DNA from: Planctomycetia bacterium | GTDB taxonomy: Bacteria > Planctomycetota > Phycisphaerae > Phycisphaerales > SM1A02 | Assembly: GCA_005792145.1 (NCBI GenBank) | Contig: SXSS01000133.1 | Span: 1-35,475 of the forward strand | Direction: 5' to 3' | Length of the DNA stretch: 35,475 bases | In this document: one piece after another, positions 8,956-18,764 of the stretch | Numbering within the stretch: position 1 is the first letter of the stretch | Layout: each line of letters starts with the position of its first letter | Notes under the pieces: model-generated | The model's database searches: none | Told to the model about the DNA's origin: nothing | Seen by the model: the letters and a program-made list of their open reading frames with translations, nothing else | Made by a program: the position numbers and the translations under genes

Positions 8956-9639
8956 TTGCAGCGAGAAAAGTCCTTGCTTTTTCGTAGACCCATCGACTCG
9001 GCATTGATCGGACCATCCATTCTCTCCGCAAATTTTGCGGATTTGGGCAAGGATGTTCGCGCAGTTCTGAAGTCTGGAGCGGATTACATTCATGTCGATG
9101 TGATGGACGGGCACTTTGTGCCCAACCTCTCTATGGGGCCTGCGGTCTGTGCGGCGGTTCGGCGAGCGGCTCCTCGGGCATGGATTGATGTGCATCTTAT
9201 GATCACCAACCCTGCGGACTTCGTAGATCCATTTCTTGCGGCGGGAGCGAACAATCTGACATTCCATATTGAAACAGTTCGTAAACCTGCGGCTCTCATT
9301 CGGCAGATCCAATCGAAGGGCGCCACAGCTGGAATCGCAATCAAACCAGCAACACCGTGGACTGCGATCAAATCACTTTTTTCTTTGGCGGATGTTTTTC
9401 TGGTGATGAGTGTTCACCCTGGATTTAGCGGTCAAAAATTCATCCGGTCTGCACTGCCAAAGGTTCGAGCAATTCGAGAATGCATCAGTGAAAATCAGCG
9501 CGTCGAACTTGACGGAGGCGTGACTCCGCAGAATGCGCAAATATGCAGACGCGCTGGATGCGATGCGCTTGTCTCTGGATCGGAAATCTTTGAAAGCAAG
9601 AATTTCGCTCGAGTGATCACTGCGCTTCGCAGTGGATGA
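8956..9639 (+). CDS. rpe: Ribulose-phosphate 3-epimerase
   Basis: Rpe interconverts ribulose-5-phosphate and xylulose-5-phosphate in the pentose phosphate or Calvin pathways. It is a TIM barrel with family signatures GPSILSANFADL, YIHVDVMDGHFVPNLSMGP (metal and substrate residues), IDVHLMI, MSVHPGFSGQKF and ELDGGVTPQNA, so the catalytic Asp and His positions are intact. No ATG is available before the conserved core. TTG codons at 8956, 8974 and 9004 are the only candidates. I give the first, which starts 2 nt after the preceding stop and suggests translational coupling; 9004 would give a more typical short N-terminus. At 227 residues it is near the usual 220-230. Its stop overlaps the first possible accD ATG (ATGA). 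Confidence 0.95.
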   Translation: MQREKSLLFRRPIDSALIGPSILSANFADLGKDVRAVLKSGADYIHVDVMDGHFVPNLSMGPAVCAAVRRAAPRAWIDVHLMITNPADFVDPFLAAGANNLTFHIETVRKPAALIRQIQSKGATAGIAIKPATPWTAIKSLFSLADVFLVMSVHPGFSGQKFIRSALPKVRAIRECISENQRVELDGGVTPQNAQICRRAGCDALVSGSEIFESKNFARVITALRSG

Positions 9640-10508
9640 TTCGTCTGCGTGTTGTCGCTAGGATGATGCCAATGGCCGAACCAACATGGGAAATTGCAAC
9701 AACACCCGCAACGAAACGGGCAGTTCCAGATGGCTTGTGGATGCAATGTCCCGCCTGCGGAGAAACGCTTTTTCGCAAAGCGGTCGAGCAGAATCTTCAT
9801 GTCTGCCCGCGCTGTGATTATCACATGCGAATGAGTGGTCGGCAGCGTGTCGATCAATTGCTCGATCCAGGATCGTTCGAGCCAATGAACGCCAAGATGG
9901 CGCCGGCAGATCCACTGAAATTTGTTGATCTCAAGGCATATTCCGATCGGGTTGTTCAGGCTCAGAAGCAGACGGGCGAAAATGATGGCGCTCAAACTGG
10001 AACTGGCTTTATCAAAGGTCGAAAAGTTGTCATTGCGGTTATGGATTTCACTTTTCTTGCTGGATCGATGGGATCCGTTGTTGGTGAAAAAGTGACATGT
10101 GCGATTGAGCATGCGACTGAAAATGGGTTGCCATTCATCGCCGTCTGTTGCTCTGGCGGCGCACGCATGCAGGAGTCTGGATTTTCGCTGATGCAGATGG
10201 CCAAGACAAGCGCAGCGCTCGGCAGATTGGATGATGTTGGCGGATTATTCATCTCCGTGCTGACCGATCCAACGACTGGTGGCGTGACGGCAAGCTTTGC
10301 AATGCTTGGCGATGTGATCTTCGCAGAACCCAAAGCACTCATTGGTTTCGCGGGACCGCGAGTCATCCGTCAGACGATTCGCCAAGATCTTCCAGAAGGC
10401 TTTCAAACAAGCGAATTTTTGCTTGATGCTGGCTTCTTGGATCGCATCGTTCACCGTGCGAATCTTCGCAGCGAGATAAGTCGAATCATTGACTATTCGG
10501 GCAACTAG
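9636..10508 (+). CDS. accD: Acetyl-CoA carboxylase carboxyltransferase subunit beta
   Basis: AccD forms, with AccA, the carboxyltransferase half of acetyl-CoA carboxylase, the committed step to fatty acids. The 290-residue protein has the N-terminal zinc ribbon CPAC...CPRC (about residues 38-60) and the crotonase-fold core with FLAGSMGSVVGEK, the oxyanion-type CCSGGARMQESG, and TTGGVTASFAMLGDV. The subunit is complete; accA is not in this window. The first ATG (9636) overlaps the rpe stop as ATGA. AGGA at 9660-9663 sits 8 nt before another ATG at 9672, so the real start may be 12 codons later. It overlaps the GTG of the lnt fusion by one base (TAGTG). Confidence 0.97.
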   Translation: MIRLRVVARMMPMAEPTWEIATTPATKRAVPDGLWMQCPACGETLFRKAVEQNLHVCPRCDYHMRMSGRQRVDQLLDPGSFEPMNAKMAPADPLKFVDLKAYSDRVVQAQKQTGENDGAQTGTGFIKGRKVVIAVMDFTFLAGSMGSVVGEKVTCAIEHATENGLPFIAVCCSGGARMQESGFSLMQMAKTSAALGRLDDVGGLFISVLTDPTTGGVTASFAMLGDVIFAEPKALIGFAGPRVIRQTIRQDLPEGFQTSEFLLDAGFLDRIVHRANLRSEISRIIDYSGN

Positions 10509-13498
10509 TGCGAACCATCTCGACCGAGCCAATGAATCGGTCGACCACGCTAGATATAGGTTCGCTTTCAACGAGGGCTCTCTGGTTCTGTGCCGCGCTT
10601 TCTCCCATTTGCATGGGGCTTGCATTTTCAATCTCTGAATTCTGTTGGCCATTGGCATTCGTTGCCCCACTGGGATGGATGGTGCTTGCTGCGACTCCGG
10701 TGCTTCCTCGCAAAGGTTGGATCGCCGTCACCATTTGCGCTTGGGTGATGTGGATGTGGTTCGAACTTTGGATGATTGATGTCACTGCGCTTGGATATCC
10801 GATTGCGTGCGTCTATCTCTCGCTCTATGCACCGCTTGGGATTTGGTTTTTTCGCCGTGCTCGCAGTGGATCAATTGGACGGCATCTGCCATTCGCGCTG
10901 CTTGCTCCGATTATTGTTTGTGCAATCGAGTGGTTGAAAGATGTTGTGATATTCGACGGCTATCCGTGGTATAGCGTCGGGCAACCTTTGATCGAGTCGC
11001 GGACGATTTCGCAGATCGCCGACTTTGGTGGCGCGGTTTCCGCATCTTTCCTTGTCGTCTGTGTCAGCGGTGCTGCGATTGATCTTCGCGCTTGGATGTT
11101 TGGTGTGCGTACAAATGAACTCCGTCGTCGTGCGATCATTGGTGGCGCGCTTGCAGTTTTCACTCTCGCATTCTCATTTGCATATGGCGTATGGAGAGTG
11201 CAAGAAACGCCGAGTGCATTGATAGATGGTCCACGGATTCTGGCGGTGCAGACGAATCTGACAACCGACAACAAGCTTGGTTGGCCGCGTGAACGGCAAG
11301 AAAGCGATGTGCTGGACTTTGGTCGATTAACACTTTCGCTTGCGGACGATCAACGCGAACAGGGAAATCGAATCGATCTTGTTGTCTGGCCAGAAACGAT
11401 GTTGCCTGGATTTGGATTGGAACCAAAGACAATCGAAACTCTTGTCAGCGGGGGATTTTCTCCAGGTGATCACTTTTCATCTTTCGCCACGATGCTTGCG
11501 AAGCGTCTTGATGCGCCGTTCTTGATCGGCAGTCCGGCTTTTCTTGGACTGCGCGCGCAGAATCAACGCTGGGAATGGGATCGGCAATTCAACAGCGCAT
11601 ATCTCGTCGATGGGGATGGGCCATACCAAAGATATGACAAGGTTTTTCTAACGCCGTTTGGAGAGACCATGCCATACATTTCGAAATGGACGTGGTTGGA
11701 AGAGCGGCTCTTGGCGCTCGGCGCGCGCGGGATGACATTCGATCTTGATGCATCGACAGAATTTCGCAGGATTTCTTTCGAGTGGGGGGCAAAGAATGAG
11801 AAGCGCGAGAAGATGGAGTGTGCGACCCCGATCTGTTTTGAAGACACGGTTCCAAGCGTCGTTCGAAGTCTGGTCTATTTTGATGGTTCAAAGAAGGCTG
11901 GGATGATCGTGAATCTTTCCAATGATGGATGGTTTGGATTCAGCGATTGGGGGCGACGCCAACACGAGTTGATCGCACGCTGGCGCTGCATCGAAAATCG
12001 CACGCCGATGGTTCGAGTTGCAAACACTGGAATTTCCCGAGCTTTTACCAGCGAAGGAGTGGCGATTGATGGCGCAGTCGTGGCTGCACGCACGCTTGGT
12101 GGGTTTGCGGTTTCGGTGCAACTTGATCGACGCGAGACATTGTTTGGACGGTGGGGCGATGTACTCTCTCCATCGATGGCATTTCTCGCATTCATATTTG
12201 TCGCGCAAGGTTTTCGAATTCGATCATGTGCATCGGGGATGACCAAGTCTTTCCCTCTTTTTATTTTTGGATTGCTTGTGTGCGCGGCAATAGTTGGCTG
12301 CGCTTCGAATCCAAATTCGTCGGGAGTTGCAGCGGGACCATCATGGAGTTCTCGTCCTGGGCAGAACGATTCGACCACGCCGCAAGTCGATACATCCACT
12401 TCGCAAGCAAATCAGGCGGCATCTTCGACAATGGAGAATTCTGCTCAAGCGCAGCGCCTCGATGCGCGTGCGAAAGCAAACGCGCTCTCGACTTCGGTTG
12501 TGCAGACCCCTCAGCAAGCGGCTTCGGTCGTGCGTTTGGATGCGAACGCTCCACCTGAAAAAATTGCGATTGATCTTCTTCTCGAAGCGTCGGTCAGTCC
12601 AGACGCGATTTATCGCGCGCATTCGCTTGAGGGATTGGAGTCAAGAGTGGCCGTGCTTCAACCAATCGCTTGCCGACTTCTTGCGGACCCAAATGCTGGC
12701 GTCCGTTTTTCAGCTGCGATTGTGGTCGGCAAGAAGCGATTATCTGATTGCACGCAAATTCTCGAACCTCTGCGGCTGGATCCAGACCCGTCGGTTCGCG
12801 CTGCGGCGCTTTATGCACTCGTTCGACTGGGGAAGACCGTTGACCTGAGTCCCCTCAACGAACTTGTTTCAAGTCCAAATGCTGAAATTCGTGCGAATAC
12901 TTTTTTCGTACTTGGTGAGTTGAAAAATCCTACTGCGATTCCTTTGGTCGAAAGCGTCGTGGGTCGACGACTTCTGGGAGTTGATCAAACGCGCGCTCGC
13001 ATCGTTGATCTTCAGGCTGCCGAAGCGATGGCGAAGATGGGTGATTACCGTCAATACGATCCGATTCGTGCCGCACTTTTCGCGCCGAGCGAGCAATCGG
13101 AAATTGTTGCGCTTGCATGCCAAATGGTTGGCGAGACGAATGATCGTGGTGCGCGAGGTCACTTGATTGGCCTCTGGAATGGTCGTGGTCCACTCGAAAA
13201 ACCGATCGAAATTCGGCTCATCGCCGGCGCGGCCCTCGCGCGAATTGGCGAGCCGAATCTCGAACCAATTATGCAACTATGTCAGGTTGCTGCCAAGGAT
13301 TCGGCGCCGACGATTCGAGCGCAGGCGGCCGCAACATTGGGCTGGGTCGGTGGGAAGCGTGCTCTAGATGCGCTTACTCCTCTCCTGCGCGATCCATACG
13401 CCATGGTGCGATTGTCGGCTGCATCCGCATATTTGCGGGTATTCCCAGACCCAAGTTCGTCAGAGGTTTCTGCGGTATTCGATGCAAATGTTCGTTGA
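10508..13498 (+). CDS. lnt: Apolipoprotein N-acyltransferase fused in frame to a HEAT-repeat lipoprotein
   Basis: Residues 1-577 are Lnt, the inner-membrane enzyme that N-acylates the lipid-modified cysteine of lipoproteins. It has an N-terminal multi-helix bundle, then a nitrilase-fold domain. The Glu-Lys-Cys triad is present: E296 in VVWPETMLPG, K378 in YDKVFLTPFGE, C443 in TPICFED. After its last helix comes Met578, which begins a complete lipoprotein signal (hydrophobic core, then AAIVGCASN with lipobox C598), a Ser/Thr/Gln-rich linker, and from about residue 690 HEAT-like repeats with motifs such as DPNAGVRFSAA and DPSVRAAALYAL. No stop separates the two parts, and no good Shine-Dalgarno sequence precedes Met578 (12239). 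Charge distribution would put the lipobox and repeats in the periplasm. Starts are GTG 10508 or ATG 10532. The fusion may be a self-processed polyprotein, or a stop may have been lost. Confidence 0.9.
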   Translation: MRTISTEPMNRSTTLDIGSLSTRALWFCAALSPICMGLAFSISEFCWPLAFVAPLGWMVLAATPVLPRKGWIAVTICAWVMWMWFELWMIDVTALGYPIACVYLSLYAPLGIWFFRRARSGSIGRHLPFALLAPIIVCAIEWLKDVVIFDGYPWYSVGQPLIESRTISQIADFGGAVSASFLVVCVSGAAIDLRAWMFGVRTNELRRRAIIGGALAVFTLAFSFAYGVWRVQETPSALIDGPRILAVQTNLTTDNKLGWPRERQESDVLDFGRLTLSLADDQREQGNRIDLVVWPETMLPGFGLEPKTIETLVSGGFSPGDHFSSFATMLAKRLDAPFLIGSPAFLGLRAQNQRWEWDRQFNSAYLVDGDGPYQRYDKVFLTPFGETMPYISKWTWLEERLLALGARGMTFDLDASTEFRRISFEWGAKNEKREKMECATPICFEDTVPSVVRSLVYFDGSKKAGMIVNLSNDGWFGFSDWGRRQHELIARWRCIENRTPMVRVANTGISRAFTSEGVAIDGAVVAARTLGGFAVSVQLDRRETLFGRWGDVLSPSMAFLAFIFVAQGFRIRSCASGMTKSFPLFIFGLLVCAAIVGCASNPNSSGVAAGPSWSSRPGQNDSTTPQVDTSTSQANQAASSTMENSAQAQRLDARAKANALSTSVVQTPQQAASVVRLDANAPPEKIAIDLLLEASVSPDAIYRAHSLEGLESRVAVLQPIACRLLADPNAGVRFSAAIVVGKKRLSDCTQILEPLRLDPDPSVRAAALYALVRLGKTVDLSPLNELVSSPNAEIRANTFFVLGELKNPTAIPLVESVVGRRLLGVDQTRARIVDLQAAEAMAKMGDYRQYDPIRAALFAPSEQSEIVALACQMVGETNDRGARGHLIGLWNGRGPLEKPIEIRLIAGAALARIGEPNLEPIMQLCQVAAKDSAPTIRAQAAATLGWVGGKRALDALTPLLRDPYAMVRLSAASAYLRVFPDPSSSEVSAVFDANVR

Positions 13499-14896: not shown

Positions 14897-14935
14897 AGAA
14901 CACTGAAAAATACTTTGCCCAAGGAGGGGCTTTAT

Positions 14936-16003
14936 ATGAGTCTAGATAAAATGATGGGTTGGTTTAGCGTGGATATGGGTATCGACCTTGGTACTTGCAA
15001 CACGCTTGTATGCGTTCGCGGAGAGGGAATCGTGCTGAACGAACCTTCCGTCGTCGCAGTGCGCAAAGGAACGAATCAAGTTTTGATGAATGGAACGGCG
15101 GTGGGATTCGCTGCGAAAGAGATGCTCGGTCGCACGCCTGGATCAATCCAAGCCATTCGCCCATTGAAGGACGGAGTGATCTCCGACTTCGAAATCACCG
15201 AGGCGATGTTGAAGTACTTCATCCAGAAGGTCATGGGTCGTAGCAGGATTTTCGGACCGCGCGTAGTCATCTCGATTCCATCTGGAATCACCGCAGTCGA
15301 AAAGCGAGCTGTCTTGGATAGCGCAGAGCGCGCAGGAGCACGCAAAGTCTATTTGCTCGAAGAACCTATGGCCGCGGCGATGGGTGCAAAATTGCCATTC
15401 GATGACGCGGTTGCCAGCATGGTCGTCGATATCGGCGGTGGAACGAGTGAAATTGCGATCCTCAGTTTGGCGGATATCGCCAAGGCTTCCAGTTTGCGAG
15501 TCGCAGGCGACGACTTTGACGAAGCAATCATCCAATATCTTGAAGAGAAGCGAGGAATTCGTGTTGGGGAGCAGACTGCAGAACAGATCAAGATCCGAAT
15601 CGGCAGTGCATGGCCGCTTCAGGAAGAACTTGCGATGAAAGTTCGTGGTCGAGATGTTGCTACAGGATTGCCGCGGCAGATCGAAGTGAATTCTGTTGAG
15701 GTGCGCGATGCACTCTCAGATCCGCTGAAGAAAATTGCAGATGAAGTGGTGAAGACGCTTCGCGAAGCTGACCCAGAACTTGCTGCAGATCTTTGCAATC
15801 CAGAACTTGAGCACAATGGAATCACTGTCGCAGGCGGAGGCGCGCTCTTGCGAGGAATTGATCTGATGCTTGCAAGCCGAACAGGGCTGACAGTAAAAAT
15901 TGCAGATGATCCATTGACTTGCGTCGCTCGTGGAACGGCTGATTACCTTGAGAATCTCGAACAGTACAAGTCGATTCTCGAGTCCAATGTCGAAGAACTT
16001 TGA
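14936..16003 (+). CDS. mreB: Rod shape-determining protein MreB
   Basis: MreB is a bacterial actin that polymerises under the membrane and positions the cell-wall elongation machinery. The 355-residue protein has the actin-fold ATP motifs: phosphate 1 GIDLGTCNTLV near the N-terminus, phosphate 2 VVDIGGGTSEIAIL, and the adenosine motif VAGGGALLRGID, plus LLEEPMAAAMG, so it should bind nucleotide. The N-terminal stretch SLDKMMGWFS could act as a membrane-binding helix. AAGGAGGGG at 14921-14928 sits 8 nt before the ATG at 14936, which fixes that start over an in-frame codon at 14915. It is followed by mreC and mreD. MreB occurs in some Planctomycetota classes and is missing in others. Confidence 0.98.
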   Translation: MSLDKMMGWFSVDMGIDLGTCNTLVCVRGEGIVLNEPSVVAVRKGTNQVLMNGTAVGFAAKEMLGRTPGSIQAIRPLKDGVISDFEITEAMLKYFIQKVMGRSRIFGPRVVISIPSGITAVEKRAVLDSAERAGARKVYLLEEPMAAAMGAKLPFDDAVASMVVDIGGGTSEIAILSLADIAKASSLRVAGDDFDEAIIQYLEEKRGIRVGEQTAEQIKIRIGSAWPLQEELAMKVRGRDVATGLPRQIEVNSVEVRDALSDPLKKIADEVVKTLREADPELAADLCNPELEHNGITVAGGGALLRGIDLMLASRTGLTVKIADDPLTCVARGTADYLENLEQYKSILESNVEEL

Positions 16004-16068
16004 GATTGGCAGGCACGCCCGAAGGCTCTTGATCGAGCGAGTTTTCCAAGTCAGGGAGAGTTCATAGC

Positions 16069-16914
16069 GTGCGACGAATCCCACCAATCGTATTGGTTGT
16101 CGCATTCGTGGTGATGCTGGGACTTTTTCCGACTCGGTGGATCGCGCCATTGACCGGAGACTTGTCTTCAATTCTTTGGGTTCCATTGTCGCCCATTGCG
16201 CACGGATCAACTGCGATAAGGTTATGGCTTCGTCCAAGAACTGCCGCATCGACCGAGGGCGACGCTTCGATCATTGCGGACCGAGATTATTACCGAGGCT
16301 TGTGGCACGCAGAACAGATTCGCGTTCAAGAATTAGAGAAAAAGTTAAAGACATATGAAGTGGTCTCTGCCCAAGCCCAAAGCGGTGGTGCAGTCAGGCT
16401 CGCAGCTGCGAATGTTCTCTCGCGAACGCCTGGCGCTGGAGGAGTAGCGCTGAAATTGAATGTTGGGAGTCAGCAGGGGATAACCGCAGGCGATATTGCA
16501 ATCGTTGATGGAGATGCGATTGTTGGTCGAATCGCCCCCGAAGTTGGTGCTGTTTCCAGCACTGTGCTGTCAATTGGAAATCGTGCGATTGGTCGGGTTG
16601 ATGGATATGTCGTCCCTGCGGATCAAGAAAAATCGAAGAGGCCTCAGGTCATCGCAGTCCAATTGCTTCCAGATGGAAAAGGAGATCTTCGAGGAGACAT
16701 TGATCTTGGATCCTCTGCGCGAGCTGGAGATATTGTGCGTGTGAAAGATCCTGCGTGGCCTGCAGGTGCTCAAGGAATGCGCCTCGGGGTGGTTGTGGAA
16801 ATCAAACGCAAGGACGCGCAACCGCTGCGAGGAGAGGTCATCGTTCGTCCTGCGGTCGACCCCAATATGGTTGGCGAGCTCATCGTCAAACTTTCGCAGG
16901 GAGCGCGACCATGA
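16069..16914 (+). CDS. mreC: Rod shape-determining protein MreC
   Basis: MreC is the bitopic membrane protein that links cytoplasmic MreB to periplasmic cell-wall synthases. The 281-residue protein has one N-terminal transmembrane helix (about residues 5-24), a short coiled-coil segment near RVQELEKKLKTYE (about 85-97), and the two-part beta domain with LNVGSQQGITAGDIAIVDGDAIVGRI and ending in MVGELIVKLS. The length is close to the usual 270-330. The start is GTG at 16069, with AGGGAGAG 8 nt upstream. Its stop overlaps the mreD ATG by ATGA, indicating translational coupling. Confidence 0.93.
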   Translation: MRRIPPIVLVVAFVVMLGLFPTRWIAPLTGDLSSILWVPLSPIAHGSTAIRLWLRPRTAASTEGDASIIADRDYYRGLWHAEQIRVQELEKKLKTYEVVSAQAQSGGAVRLAAANVLSRTPGAGGVALKLNVGSQQGITAGDIAIVDGDAIVGRIAPEVGAVSSTVLSIGNRAIGRVDGYVVPADQEKSKRPQVIAVQLLPDGKGDLRGDIDLGSSARAGDIVRVKDPAWPAGAQGMRLGVVVEIKRKDAQPLRGEVIVRPAVDPNMVGELIVKLSQGARP

Positions 16915-17501
16915 AATGGATTGTCGCCATTCCAATTTTGTTCATCGCCTTGGTCTTGGATGTTTCATTTATGCCCGTCTTCGAGTTGGGTGGAATCACG
17001 CCACGATTGGTTGTTGTGGTCGTTGCATTCGTAGCGATGCATGTTGATGGTCCAATCGTGCGCTGGTTCGCTCTGCTTGCAGGATTTCTTATGGATCTCT
17101 CTGAGCCATCGTTGTCTGGCCCGCGTGCGCCGTTGTATCTCATCGGACCATCGACTTTGGGAATGCTTTTTGGTGTTGAAGCGGTTCTTTCCATCCGCGG
17201 CGTTTTGATCCGAAGGAATCCATTATCAGTTGGTTTCATGTCTCTTCTGTTGAGTCTGACAAGCGGTCTCTTTTGGACGGCGTGGTGGGCGCTGCGCTCG
17301 TGGTACCCAGATTCTCCGCCGCCTTGGGGAGATGGATCGGCGCTGCGTGAATTTGGCATGCAATTTCTCGGGTCAATTTCATCAGGAATCTTCGGAATTC
17401 CTGTCGGTTTTCTCTTGCTTTATTTTTCTGGTGCGTGGGGTTTTCCATCAGTTCTGGCTCGTGCCCGAACGCAGGGTGGACAGGCTCGGATCATTCGCTA
17501 G
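16911..17501 (+). CDS. mreD: Rod shape-determining protein MreD
   Basis: MreD is a small polytopic membrane partner of MreC. This 196-residue protein has about five to six hydrophobic segments, starting WIVAIPILFIALVLDVSF, then PRLVVVVVAFVAM, FALLAGFLMDLSEP, and later segments near 135-155 and 170-185. The short FxxGFxxDL-type motif seen in MreD is recognisable in LLAGFLMDLSEP. Identification rests on position, size and topology, since MreD is weakly conserved. It starts within the mreC stop codon (ATGA), and a GGGAG motif lies about 7 nt before the ATG. The usual following genes (mrdA for PBP2, rodA) are not here; an alternative glmU follows 12 nt later. Confidence 0.85.
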   Translation: MKWIVAIPILFIALVLDVSFMPVFELGGITPRLVVVVVAFVAMHVDGPIVRWFALLAGFLMDLSEPSLSGPRAPLYLIGPSTLGMLFGVEAVLSIRGVLIRRNPLSVGFMSLLLSLTSGLFWTAWWALRSWYPDSPPPWGDGSALREFGMQFLGSISSGIFGIPVGFLLLYFSGAWGFPSVLARARTQGGQARIIR

Positions 17502-17507
17502 TAAAGT
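17502..17507 (+). promoter_or_regulatory. Candidate -10 box for alternative glmU (TAAAGT)
   Basis: TAAAGT (TANNNT type) ends 6 nt before the ATG at 17514. TGGACA at 17477-17482 (five of six -35 bases) lies 19 bp upstream, which is a long spacing. It could drive a leaderless transcript independent of mreBCD. Confidence 0.35.
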
Positions 17508-17513
17508 GCGCAT

Positions 17514-18764
17514 ATGAAATCGACAGGGACAATTGTGGTGCTCTTCGATGATTGTCTGTCGCGGTTTGGACCGCTGGCAGATTTGCGAGCAACATTCGAA
17601 CAGCGCTTGGGAGTTTTGACATGCGTTGAACGAACGATGCTTGTACTCGGTCGAGTTGATGCGCTTTATCCACCAGATTTTCTTGCCGCCGTTGTCACAG
17701 AGCGGCTTCTGTCGAATAAGACTTTGGTGGGAAGATTGCCACCGCATGCCCAAGAAGTGCTGTTGATCAATGGCGCTCTCGATTCACTCGATGATTCGGC
17801 GACTCTTGCTCTTGGAGAAGCGATCGTGACTTGCGATGATCGTATTGCGATGGCTCGATTGTTGGTCAAGGATGCAGAACGCTTCTTGGAACATCCAGGT
17901 GATGCCAGTCGACTTGCTCGGACTGTCGTGCGCCGACCGATCGCACGAGGGCAAACAATCCGCGCGCCATGGGATCTCCTTGGACGATTGGAGCAGAGTA
18001 TTCCCGCTGACATCGCGCTGATGAATCGAACCGGTGAGTTGAATGATCGAAGCGCAGCAGGAGTCATTCGATTTGGGCATCATGCTTTATTGATGGATCC
18101 GACTGCGCGCGTGCTTCCTGGTGCGATCATCGATACGACCGAGGGTCCGGTTCTGTTGGCCCATGGCGCAACTATTCGCCCTGGAGCTGTGGTCAGTGGA
18201 CCAGTTGCGCTGCTGGGAAATTCGACCATTGTCGATCGGGCGCAGATCAAAGCAAGAACGGTCATCGGACCTGGTTGCAAAGTTGGTGGCGAAGTTGGAT
18301 CGACAGTTTTTTATGGTCATTCGAATAAAGCGCACGAGGGTCATTTGGGAGATGCACTCGTGGGCGAGTGGGTCAACATCGGGGCGGGTACTTGCAGTTC
18401 GAACCTTCTCAATACATATGGTGAAGTCACGAGTCGTATCGACGCCGCGGGAAGCAACGAGAAGACTGGGCGTACCTTTTATGGGGGAGTGATCGGCGAT
18501 CATGCAAAGTTTGCGATCATGGTTGCGTTGAATACGGGTTCGACGATCGGTACTGGAGCGATGATCGCCGTTGCAAGGCCGCCAACTTTTGTCGATCGAT
18601 TTGCTTGGTTGACTCCTGAAAGATCTCAGTCGTATCGATTCAACCGATTTGAAACCACTTTGCGCGCTGTGTTGGCTCGACGAGATCGCGTGCCAGGCGA
18701 GGCATATCTCGCGCGACTGCGAGCGCTTCATGAAGCACATGCAAGCCGCGCAGGCCTAGAATGA
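17514..18764 (+). CDS. Alternative GlmU-type sugar nucleotidyltransferase/acyltransferase
   Basis: This 416-residue protein resembles the alternative bacterial GlmU family (TIGR03991-like). That family is common in Bacteroidetes and is proposed to make UDP-GlcNAc or a related nucleotide sugar for the envelope. The N-terminus (VVLFDDCLSRFGPLADLRATFEQRLG and VLTCVER) matches the family signature: an FDD and a PL..LR...E.R.G motif rather than the classical GlmU pyrophosphorylase G-x-G-T-R-M loop. From about residue 195 a left-handed beta-helix of hexapeptide repeats follows. It includes the GlmU-like HEGHLGDALVGEWVNIGAGT, which in GlmU lines the acetyl-CoA site. The actual sugar is unproven. It lies 12 nt after mreD, consistent with supplying precursor to wall elongation, and a TAAAGT box 6 nt upstream could give it its own transcript. 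Confidence 0.85.
   Translation: MKSTGTIVVLFDDCLSRFGPLADLRATFEQRLGVLTCVERTMLVLGRVDALYPPDFLAAVVTERLLSNKTLVGRLPPHAQEVLLINGALDSLDDSATLALGEAIVTCDDRIAMARLLVKDAERFLEHPGDASRLARTVVRRPIARGQTIRAPWDLLGRLEQSIPADIALMNRTGELNDRSAAGVIRFGHHALLMDPTARVLPGAIIDTTEGPVLLAHGATIRPGAVVSGPVALLGNSTIVDRAQIKARTVIGPGCKVGGEVGSTVFYGHSNKAHEGHLGDALVGEWVNIGAGTCSSNLLNTYGEVTSRIDAAGSNEKTGRTFYGGVIGDHAKFAIMVALNTGSTIGTGAMIAVARPPTFVDRFAWLTPERSQSYRFNRFETTLRAVLARRDRVPGEAYLARLRALHEAHASRAGLE

Follow-up and report, generated by a model that had tools for sequence, protein, structure and literature searches.

Can a lipoprotein N-acyltransferase, Lnt, be made in one chain with a protein of the kind that it modifies? The question is raised by a 35,475-nucleotide stretch of contig SXSS01000133.1 from a Planctomycetia bacterium (assembly GCA_005792145.1), which we call the window. 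Positions 10508–13498 of its forward strand, on which the fusion and the gene upstream of it lie, form a single unbroken frame of 996 codons (996 amino acids) from a GTG start to a stop codon, although the true start could be the ATG at residue 9 (10532) instead of the GTG at 10508. Lnt occupies the first part of this frame, and a lipobox cysteine (C598) and a HEAT-repeat domain follow; Lnt and HEAT parts also share a frame in 39 other loci. We propose that the gene encodes a polyprotein in which Lgt would lipidate C598 and LspA would cut at this residue, yielding Lnt and a HEAT lipoprotein, and we put the probability of this reading, which is drawn from sequence, at roughly 0.7. An earlier note on this DNA had advanced a similar interpretation, which is partly supported by the results below.

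Lnt, the internal signal and the pathway enzymes

The earlier note had described one 996-codon frame with a complete Lnt, including E296, K378 and C443, followed by a lipobox and a HEAT domain, and each of these elements was recovered. The TIGR00546 lnt model matched at 198.1 bits, compared to a curated cut-off of 132.9, and a PDB search with a profile of fused relatives returned E. coli Lnt (5n6h) at 6e-36. The columns of the three catalytic residues (E296 at 11393–11395, K378 at 11639–11641 and C443 at 11834–11836) are invariant across the aligned fusions, which comprise 36 of the 40 fused loci, and the motifs WPE, RYxK, PFGE and IC[FY]E, which hold E296, K378, E386 and C443, align with those of 5n6h. 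Hydropathy, with runs grouped by hand, placed helices 1–7 of the membrane part at residues 24–229 (10577–11194) and helix 8 at residues 549–569 (12152–12214); Pfam LNT_N lies within the membrane part (residues 36–188; 10613–11071), and the nitrilase domain, matched by Pfam CN_hydrolase, spans residues 285–509 (11360–12034). The fused part is a complete Lnt, and an N-acyltransferase role is predicted for it. It resembles E. coli Lnt in its eight helices, its nitrilase domain, and its E-K-C residues with their surrounding motifs, whereas the E. coli chain ends after the eight helices (PMC5500888) and the fusion chain continues into a lipoprotein.

Helix 8 is followed by a positively charged loop (RIRSCASGMTKS; 12215–12250), by the hydrophobic core of an internal signal peptide (residues 582–597; 12251–12298) that ends in I-V-G, and by C598 (12299–12301). 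The features of a bacterial lipoprotein signal, a positive n-region (RIRS and a K), a hydrophobic core and IVG-C598, are thus all present, and they lie inside the chain (residues ~578–597 of 996), not at the N-terminus of the primary product. Our hydropathy analysis gave eight Lnt segments and a ninth at residues 577–602 around C598. E. coli Lnt has eight helices with both its N- and its C-terminus in the cytoplasm (PMC5500888), and a ninth helix would therefore place the HEAT part outside; the topology with an external lipobox that the earlier note had predicted from charge agrees with this arrangement of eight helices, positive loop and ninth helix. At least two K or R residues occur in the 26 residues spanning the loop and early helix in 39/40 fusions, and D and E are absent from the same residues in 30/40.

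Conservation at the junction centers on the cysteine, as C598 is the sole invariant column between G550 and A687, and residue 597, at position −1, is G in 29 aligned fusions, A in six and S in one. A relaxed lipobox follows a hydrophobic run at the junction in 37 of the 40 fusions, compared to ~1.8 expected from the rate in the Lnt part. Because the cysteine is invariant and a small residue precedes it, we infer that the chain would be lipidated and cleaved at this position. If the ninth helix were instead an ordinary membrane anchor, the cysteine would have some other role and the HEAT domain would merely be tethered. A helix alone would suffice to place the domain in the periplasm, and the strict lipobox [LVI][ASTVI][GAS]C is found in just 19/40 fusions; nevertheless, we consider a plain anchor very improbable because an invariant cysteine preceded by a small residue comes directly behind the helix, relaxed lipoboxes exceed expectation, and the HEAT part is homologous to separate HEAT lipoproteins encoded in related genomes. 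The strict form is no more frequent in those separate HEAT proteins (24/81), and the lipobox is therefore loose in both states. For four loci (L010, L111, L029 and L134), the cysteine of the lipobox was assigned by eye.

C-terminal to the cysteine, a variable linker (residues 599–690; 12302–12577) leads to the HEAT-repeat domain (Pfam HEAT_2; residues 691–985; 12578–13462). The linker contains a conserved W-S-[ST]-[RK] motif ~15 residues past the lipid cysteine (W613-S-S-R in the window, at 12344–12355), with W613 and S614 each present in 35 of the 36 aligned fusions, and by eye the motif was also seen in many separate HEAT proteins of the same family. The HEAT part itself gave repeat matches only, with HEAT_2 in 36/36 aligned fusions, and the 20 sequences returned by a PDB search with the whole protein were HEAT or alphaRep proteins that gave no pointer to the role of the HEAT part.

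Cleavage at C598 would require the lipoprotein-processing enzymes. The source genome has one LNT_N match, the fusion itself, together with one LspA and one Lgt match, Lgt having been sought in this genome alone. Of the other 39 genomes with the fusion, 36 (all except G007, G010 and G017) were surveyed for LNT_N and LspA. The fused LNT_N was present in 36/36 and was the only full Lnt found in each, an additional LNT_N match in G062 being below cut-off, and LspA was found in 34/36. Because the fusion is the sole full Lnt found in these genomes, it is most likely a general Lnt that serves other lipoproteins as well, and therefore not one half of a dedicated enzyme–substrate pair; for the same reason, the HEAT partner would probably be N-acylated by this Lnt.

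A chain that is lipidated at C598 and then left uncut would keep Lnt covalently tied to a lipid-anchored HEAT domain, which would act as a periplasmic part of the enzyme. The invariant cysteine demands lipidation only, and the spacing from GD to the cysteine is short and hairpin-like (32–61 residues, median 44.5), enough for roughly two helices joined by a short loop. However, the G, A or S before the cysteine in 36/36 aligned fusions matches the lipobox consensus (PMC8048626), LspA is present in nearly all of the surveyed fused genomes, and the HEAT protein of relatives is separate and mostly lipobox-bearing. We therefore assign the uncut chain a small but appreciable probability and favor cleavage by LspA.

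Translation across the junction

Among the five closest genomes, the ratio of nonsynonymous to synonymous substitution (dN/dS) was 0.14 for Lnt, 0.11 for residues 546–577, 0.29 for the signal core, 0.31 for residues 546–600, 0.20 for the linker (601–690) and 0.08 for the HEAT part. These values indicate purifying selection across the junction, and no stop interrupts the frame there in any of the 40 fused loci. By sequence, one frame would encode a single precursor for two proteins that other genomes make from separate genes.

The earlier note had regarded the second part as a complete lipoprotein precursor starting at Met578 (12239–12241), which lies inside the positive loop. Comparison does not support this view, as Met occupies position 578 in only 2/36 aligned fusions; G002 shares the window's ATG at this codon, whereas G010, G012 and G013, three of the four next-closest genomes, have ATT (Ile). 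The same comparison bears on a model in which one frame yields two proteins, Lnt or the whole fusion from the GTG and a HEAT lipoprotein from an internal start such as Met578. This residue does sit where a signal peptide would begin, and some ATG is present 17–32 codons before the cysteine in 27/40 fusions, compared to 69/81 separate genes. However, those 27 fusions contain 42 such ATGs, of which 37 fall within helix 8, and an ATG beyond helix 8 occurs in just 5/40 fusions, the window included. A start 17–32 codons before the cysteine with a Shine–Dalgarno energy of −5 or lower was found in 10/40 fusions and 52/81 separate genes, an energy of −5.2 being reached by roughly one random stretch in four. 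With a start 14–45 codons before the cysteine and an energy of −6 or lower, the counts were 12/40 and 54/81, and 14.6% of random stretches reach −6. Ribosome-binding-site signals in the fusions are at background. At the junction of the window we found no promoter-like site, no terminator and no unusual RNA fold (z −1.2), and the only repeat was one weak two-copy repeat. Internal initiation is unlikely because Met578 is rarely kept and ribosome-binding-site signals are at background, and we give the two-protein model a slim chance.

Residues 546–577 (12143–12238), just before Met578, show a low proportion of synonymous differences (pS) among the five closest genomes, 0.18 compared to 0.37 in Lnt, a value based on ~25 sites that might mark a constraint at the RNA level, as an internal start could impose.

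Some of our observations weigh against a polyprotein cut by LspA. Among the 36 surveyed genomes, G001 and G205 (92% and 93% complete) gave no LspA match, and G305 has a second LNT_N piece above cut-off at a contig start, which may be a half or a copy of the gene. Fewer than half of the fusions have the strict lipobox, and one fusion (L043) has no K or R at all in the 26 residues checked. The low pS before Met578, which concerns few sites, is a further such observation.

Relatives, separate genes and the origin of the fusion

As an alternative to a true fusion, the earlier note had suggested a lost stop codon or a sequencing error. The source genome (2.5 Mb, 90% complete) is in 152 contigs, and the only fused genome of genus g53, G267, in which an ATGA remains at the junction, may represent an error or loss of this kind. 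However, the genus of the source genome holds 18 other genomes, of which 15 carry the one-frame fusion and none shows a stop codon; in the remaining three, the frame of G003 passes through the lipobox up to the contig end, that of G015 lacks its first part because a contig end falls within Lnt but is likewise open across the lipobox, and G006 contributes an uninformative 171-residue piece. In total, the fusion is found at 40 loci in nine genera, with relatives reaching down to 34% identity, and it is under purifying selection across the junction. On the strength of this conservation and selection we rejected an assembly error or a recently lost stop for the source lineage, for which we see almost no chance. 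A stop codon between the two parts, for which the earlier note had proposed to search in relatives, is absent from the informative genomes of the same genus, whereas genera without the fusion typically have separate genes.

A first search of relatives gave a match in 61/61 genomes; an order-wide search matched at least 295/301 genomes and a phylum-wide search at least 217/294, and a minority of the loci from these two wider searches were classified. We classified 146 loci, of which 40 are fused, 86 have adjacent separate genes and 20 have no HEAT match in reach. Seven of these 20 lie inside one family (in G276, G234, G003, G015, G029, G209 and G025), and the G015 locus carries a HEAT match in the same frame despite its assignment to this class. 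The fusions make up 40/104 classified loci of that family, a proportion that overstates their frequency and is not a prevalence, because long open frames were fetched first; they occur in 9 of the 39 genera represented, and no classified genus is mixed. Outside the family, the fusion was found in 0/22 loci holding both parts.

In all 86 unfused loci with both genes, lnt and the HEAT gene are adjacent. Among the 79 pairs for which we could place the HEAT start, by rule and not from annotation, 36 overlap (24 by exactly 4 nt), 25 are separated by 0–50 nt, 16 by 51–200 nt and two by more than 200 nt. A lipobox-like cysteine after a hydrophobic run was present in 78/86 separate HEAT proteins by rule and in three more by eye, which bears on the earlier note's question whether the HEAT part exists elsewhere as a lipoprotein of its own. 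Because the separate HEAT genes adjoin lnt and mostly encode a lipobox, the fusion joined the enzyme gene to a neighboring lipoprotein gene. The separate and fused HEAT proteins share a homologous HEAT domain, mostly a lipobox and, in many cases, the W-S-[ST]-[RK] motif, and differ in that the separate protein has its own start, with a ribosome-binding-site signal more often than in the fusions. No lipobox cysteine was found by rule or eye in five separate HEAT proteins, L079 (G049), L080 (G060), L103 (G057), L104 (G053) and L155 (G428), which may be a soluble periplasmic form.

We also asked how often the fused state arose, using trees of 104 family loci plus six others (110 rows) and of 43 loci plus three others (46 rows). 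The fused state needs at least three changes on the 110-row tree and four on the 46-row tree, where starred branches force two. A single fused clade was rejected when G267 was included (p 0.00016) and was not rejected without it (p 0.33). G267 is the lone fused genome of its genus, and its sister genus has 4-nt overlaps between separate genes; it may represent an independent fusion or a base error. We do not claim several origins, because G267 is one genome with a retained ATGA.

Proposed processing, known fusions and neighboring genes

In the mechanism that we propose, a single co-translated precursor would be inserted such that helices 1–8 make up Lnt, whose catalytic domain would lie outside the inner membrane. 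After the short positive loop, the chain would re-enter the membrane from the cytoplasm as a ninth helix, the internal lipoprotein signal peptide. Lgt would add diacylglyceryl to C598, and LspA would cut before this residue. The first product would be Lnt, in which the former signal helix becomes the ninth transmembrane helix, at the C-terminus; the second would be a HEAT-repeat lipoprotein that Lnt would N-acylate like any other lipoprotein. As LspA would make the cut, "self-processing", the earlier note's term, is too strong. The fusion arose from an operon pair, lnt followed by a HEAT-lipoprotein gene with stop and start often overlapping, and the likeliest benefit of the fusion would therefore be a fixed 1:1 output and joint delivery of cooperating proteins. 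Adjacency in some genomes and fusion in others point to a stable partnership between Lnt and the HEAT protein. A bolder version, which we regard as possible but rather doubtful, is that Lnt is gated by its own pathway: the enzyme would become free only after Lgt and LspA process the joined lipobox, the last maturation step would be linked in cis to both earlier steps, and this HEAT lipoprotein would be both first substrate and lasting partner.

A known polyprotein is probably the closest functional analogue. FbcH of Bradyrhizobium japonicum is a cytochrome b/c1 polyprotein that is cut by signal peptidase I, and no description of it was found among the literature matches listed. Like the fusion, FbcH is a single precursor in which a polytopic membrane protein is followed by an internal signal peptide and then by an exported partner; unlike FbcH, the fusion has a lipobox (for Lgt and LspA) in place of a signal peptidase I site, and its first product is itself an enzyme of the lipoprotein pathway. 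In Mt-Ppm1 (Rv2051c), as described in PMC3460810, an Lnt domain is followed by a polyprenol-phosphate mannose (PPM) synthase, and the two are adjacent separate genes elsewhere. Both Mt-Ppm1 and the fusion join an Lnt domain to a neighbor that relatives encode next to it by a gene of its own, with the partner being PPM synthase in Mt-Ppm1 and, here, a lipoprotein, a type of Lnt substrate, joined through an internal signal peptide. No PPM synthase domain follows Lnt in the window, where HEAT repeats occur instead. Among the literature matches listed, no title or abstract opening described an Lnt–lipoprotein fusion or a lipobox polyprotein, and a term search of the available text of two reviews (PMC8689077 and PMC8048626) found neither "polyprotein" nor Planctomycetes.

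If our reading is correct, the fusion is a natural polyprotein that needs the lipoprotein signal peptidase for its separation, and in it an enzyme that modifies proteins shares a chain with a protein of the type it modifies. A lipobox could then be retained over long periods within a polytopic membrane protein, with implications for substrate recognition by Lgt and LspA, and predictors limited to N-termini would miss lipoproteins with such internal signals. The HEAT-repeat lipoprotein whose gene lies next to lnt in many relatives is likely an unrecognized partner of Lnt.

Ten long Lnt frames from other classes of the phylum (L144–L147, L149–L153 and L161) had no HEAT match and extend upstream of Lnt. 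In these loci the stop-free stretch ahead of LNT_N is ~270–640 residues long and has no other Pfam match; it is either an N-terminal extension or an unused open frame.

In the window, the gene upstream of the fusion (9636–10508) is accD-like, with Pfam Carboxyl_trans and Zn_ribbon_ACC matches, and the final base of its stop codon is the first base of the fusion's GTG. Downstream lies a cell-shape cluster of this planctomycete (14915–18764), with MreB, weak matches to MreC and MreD (below cut-offs) and, last, a GlmU-like sugar nucleotidyltransferase.

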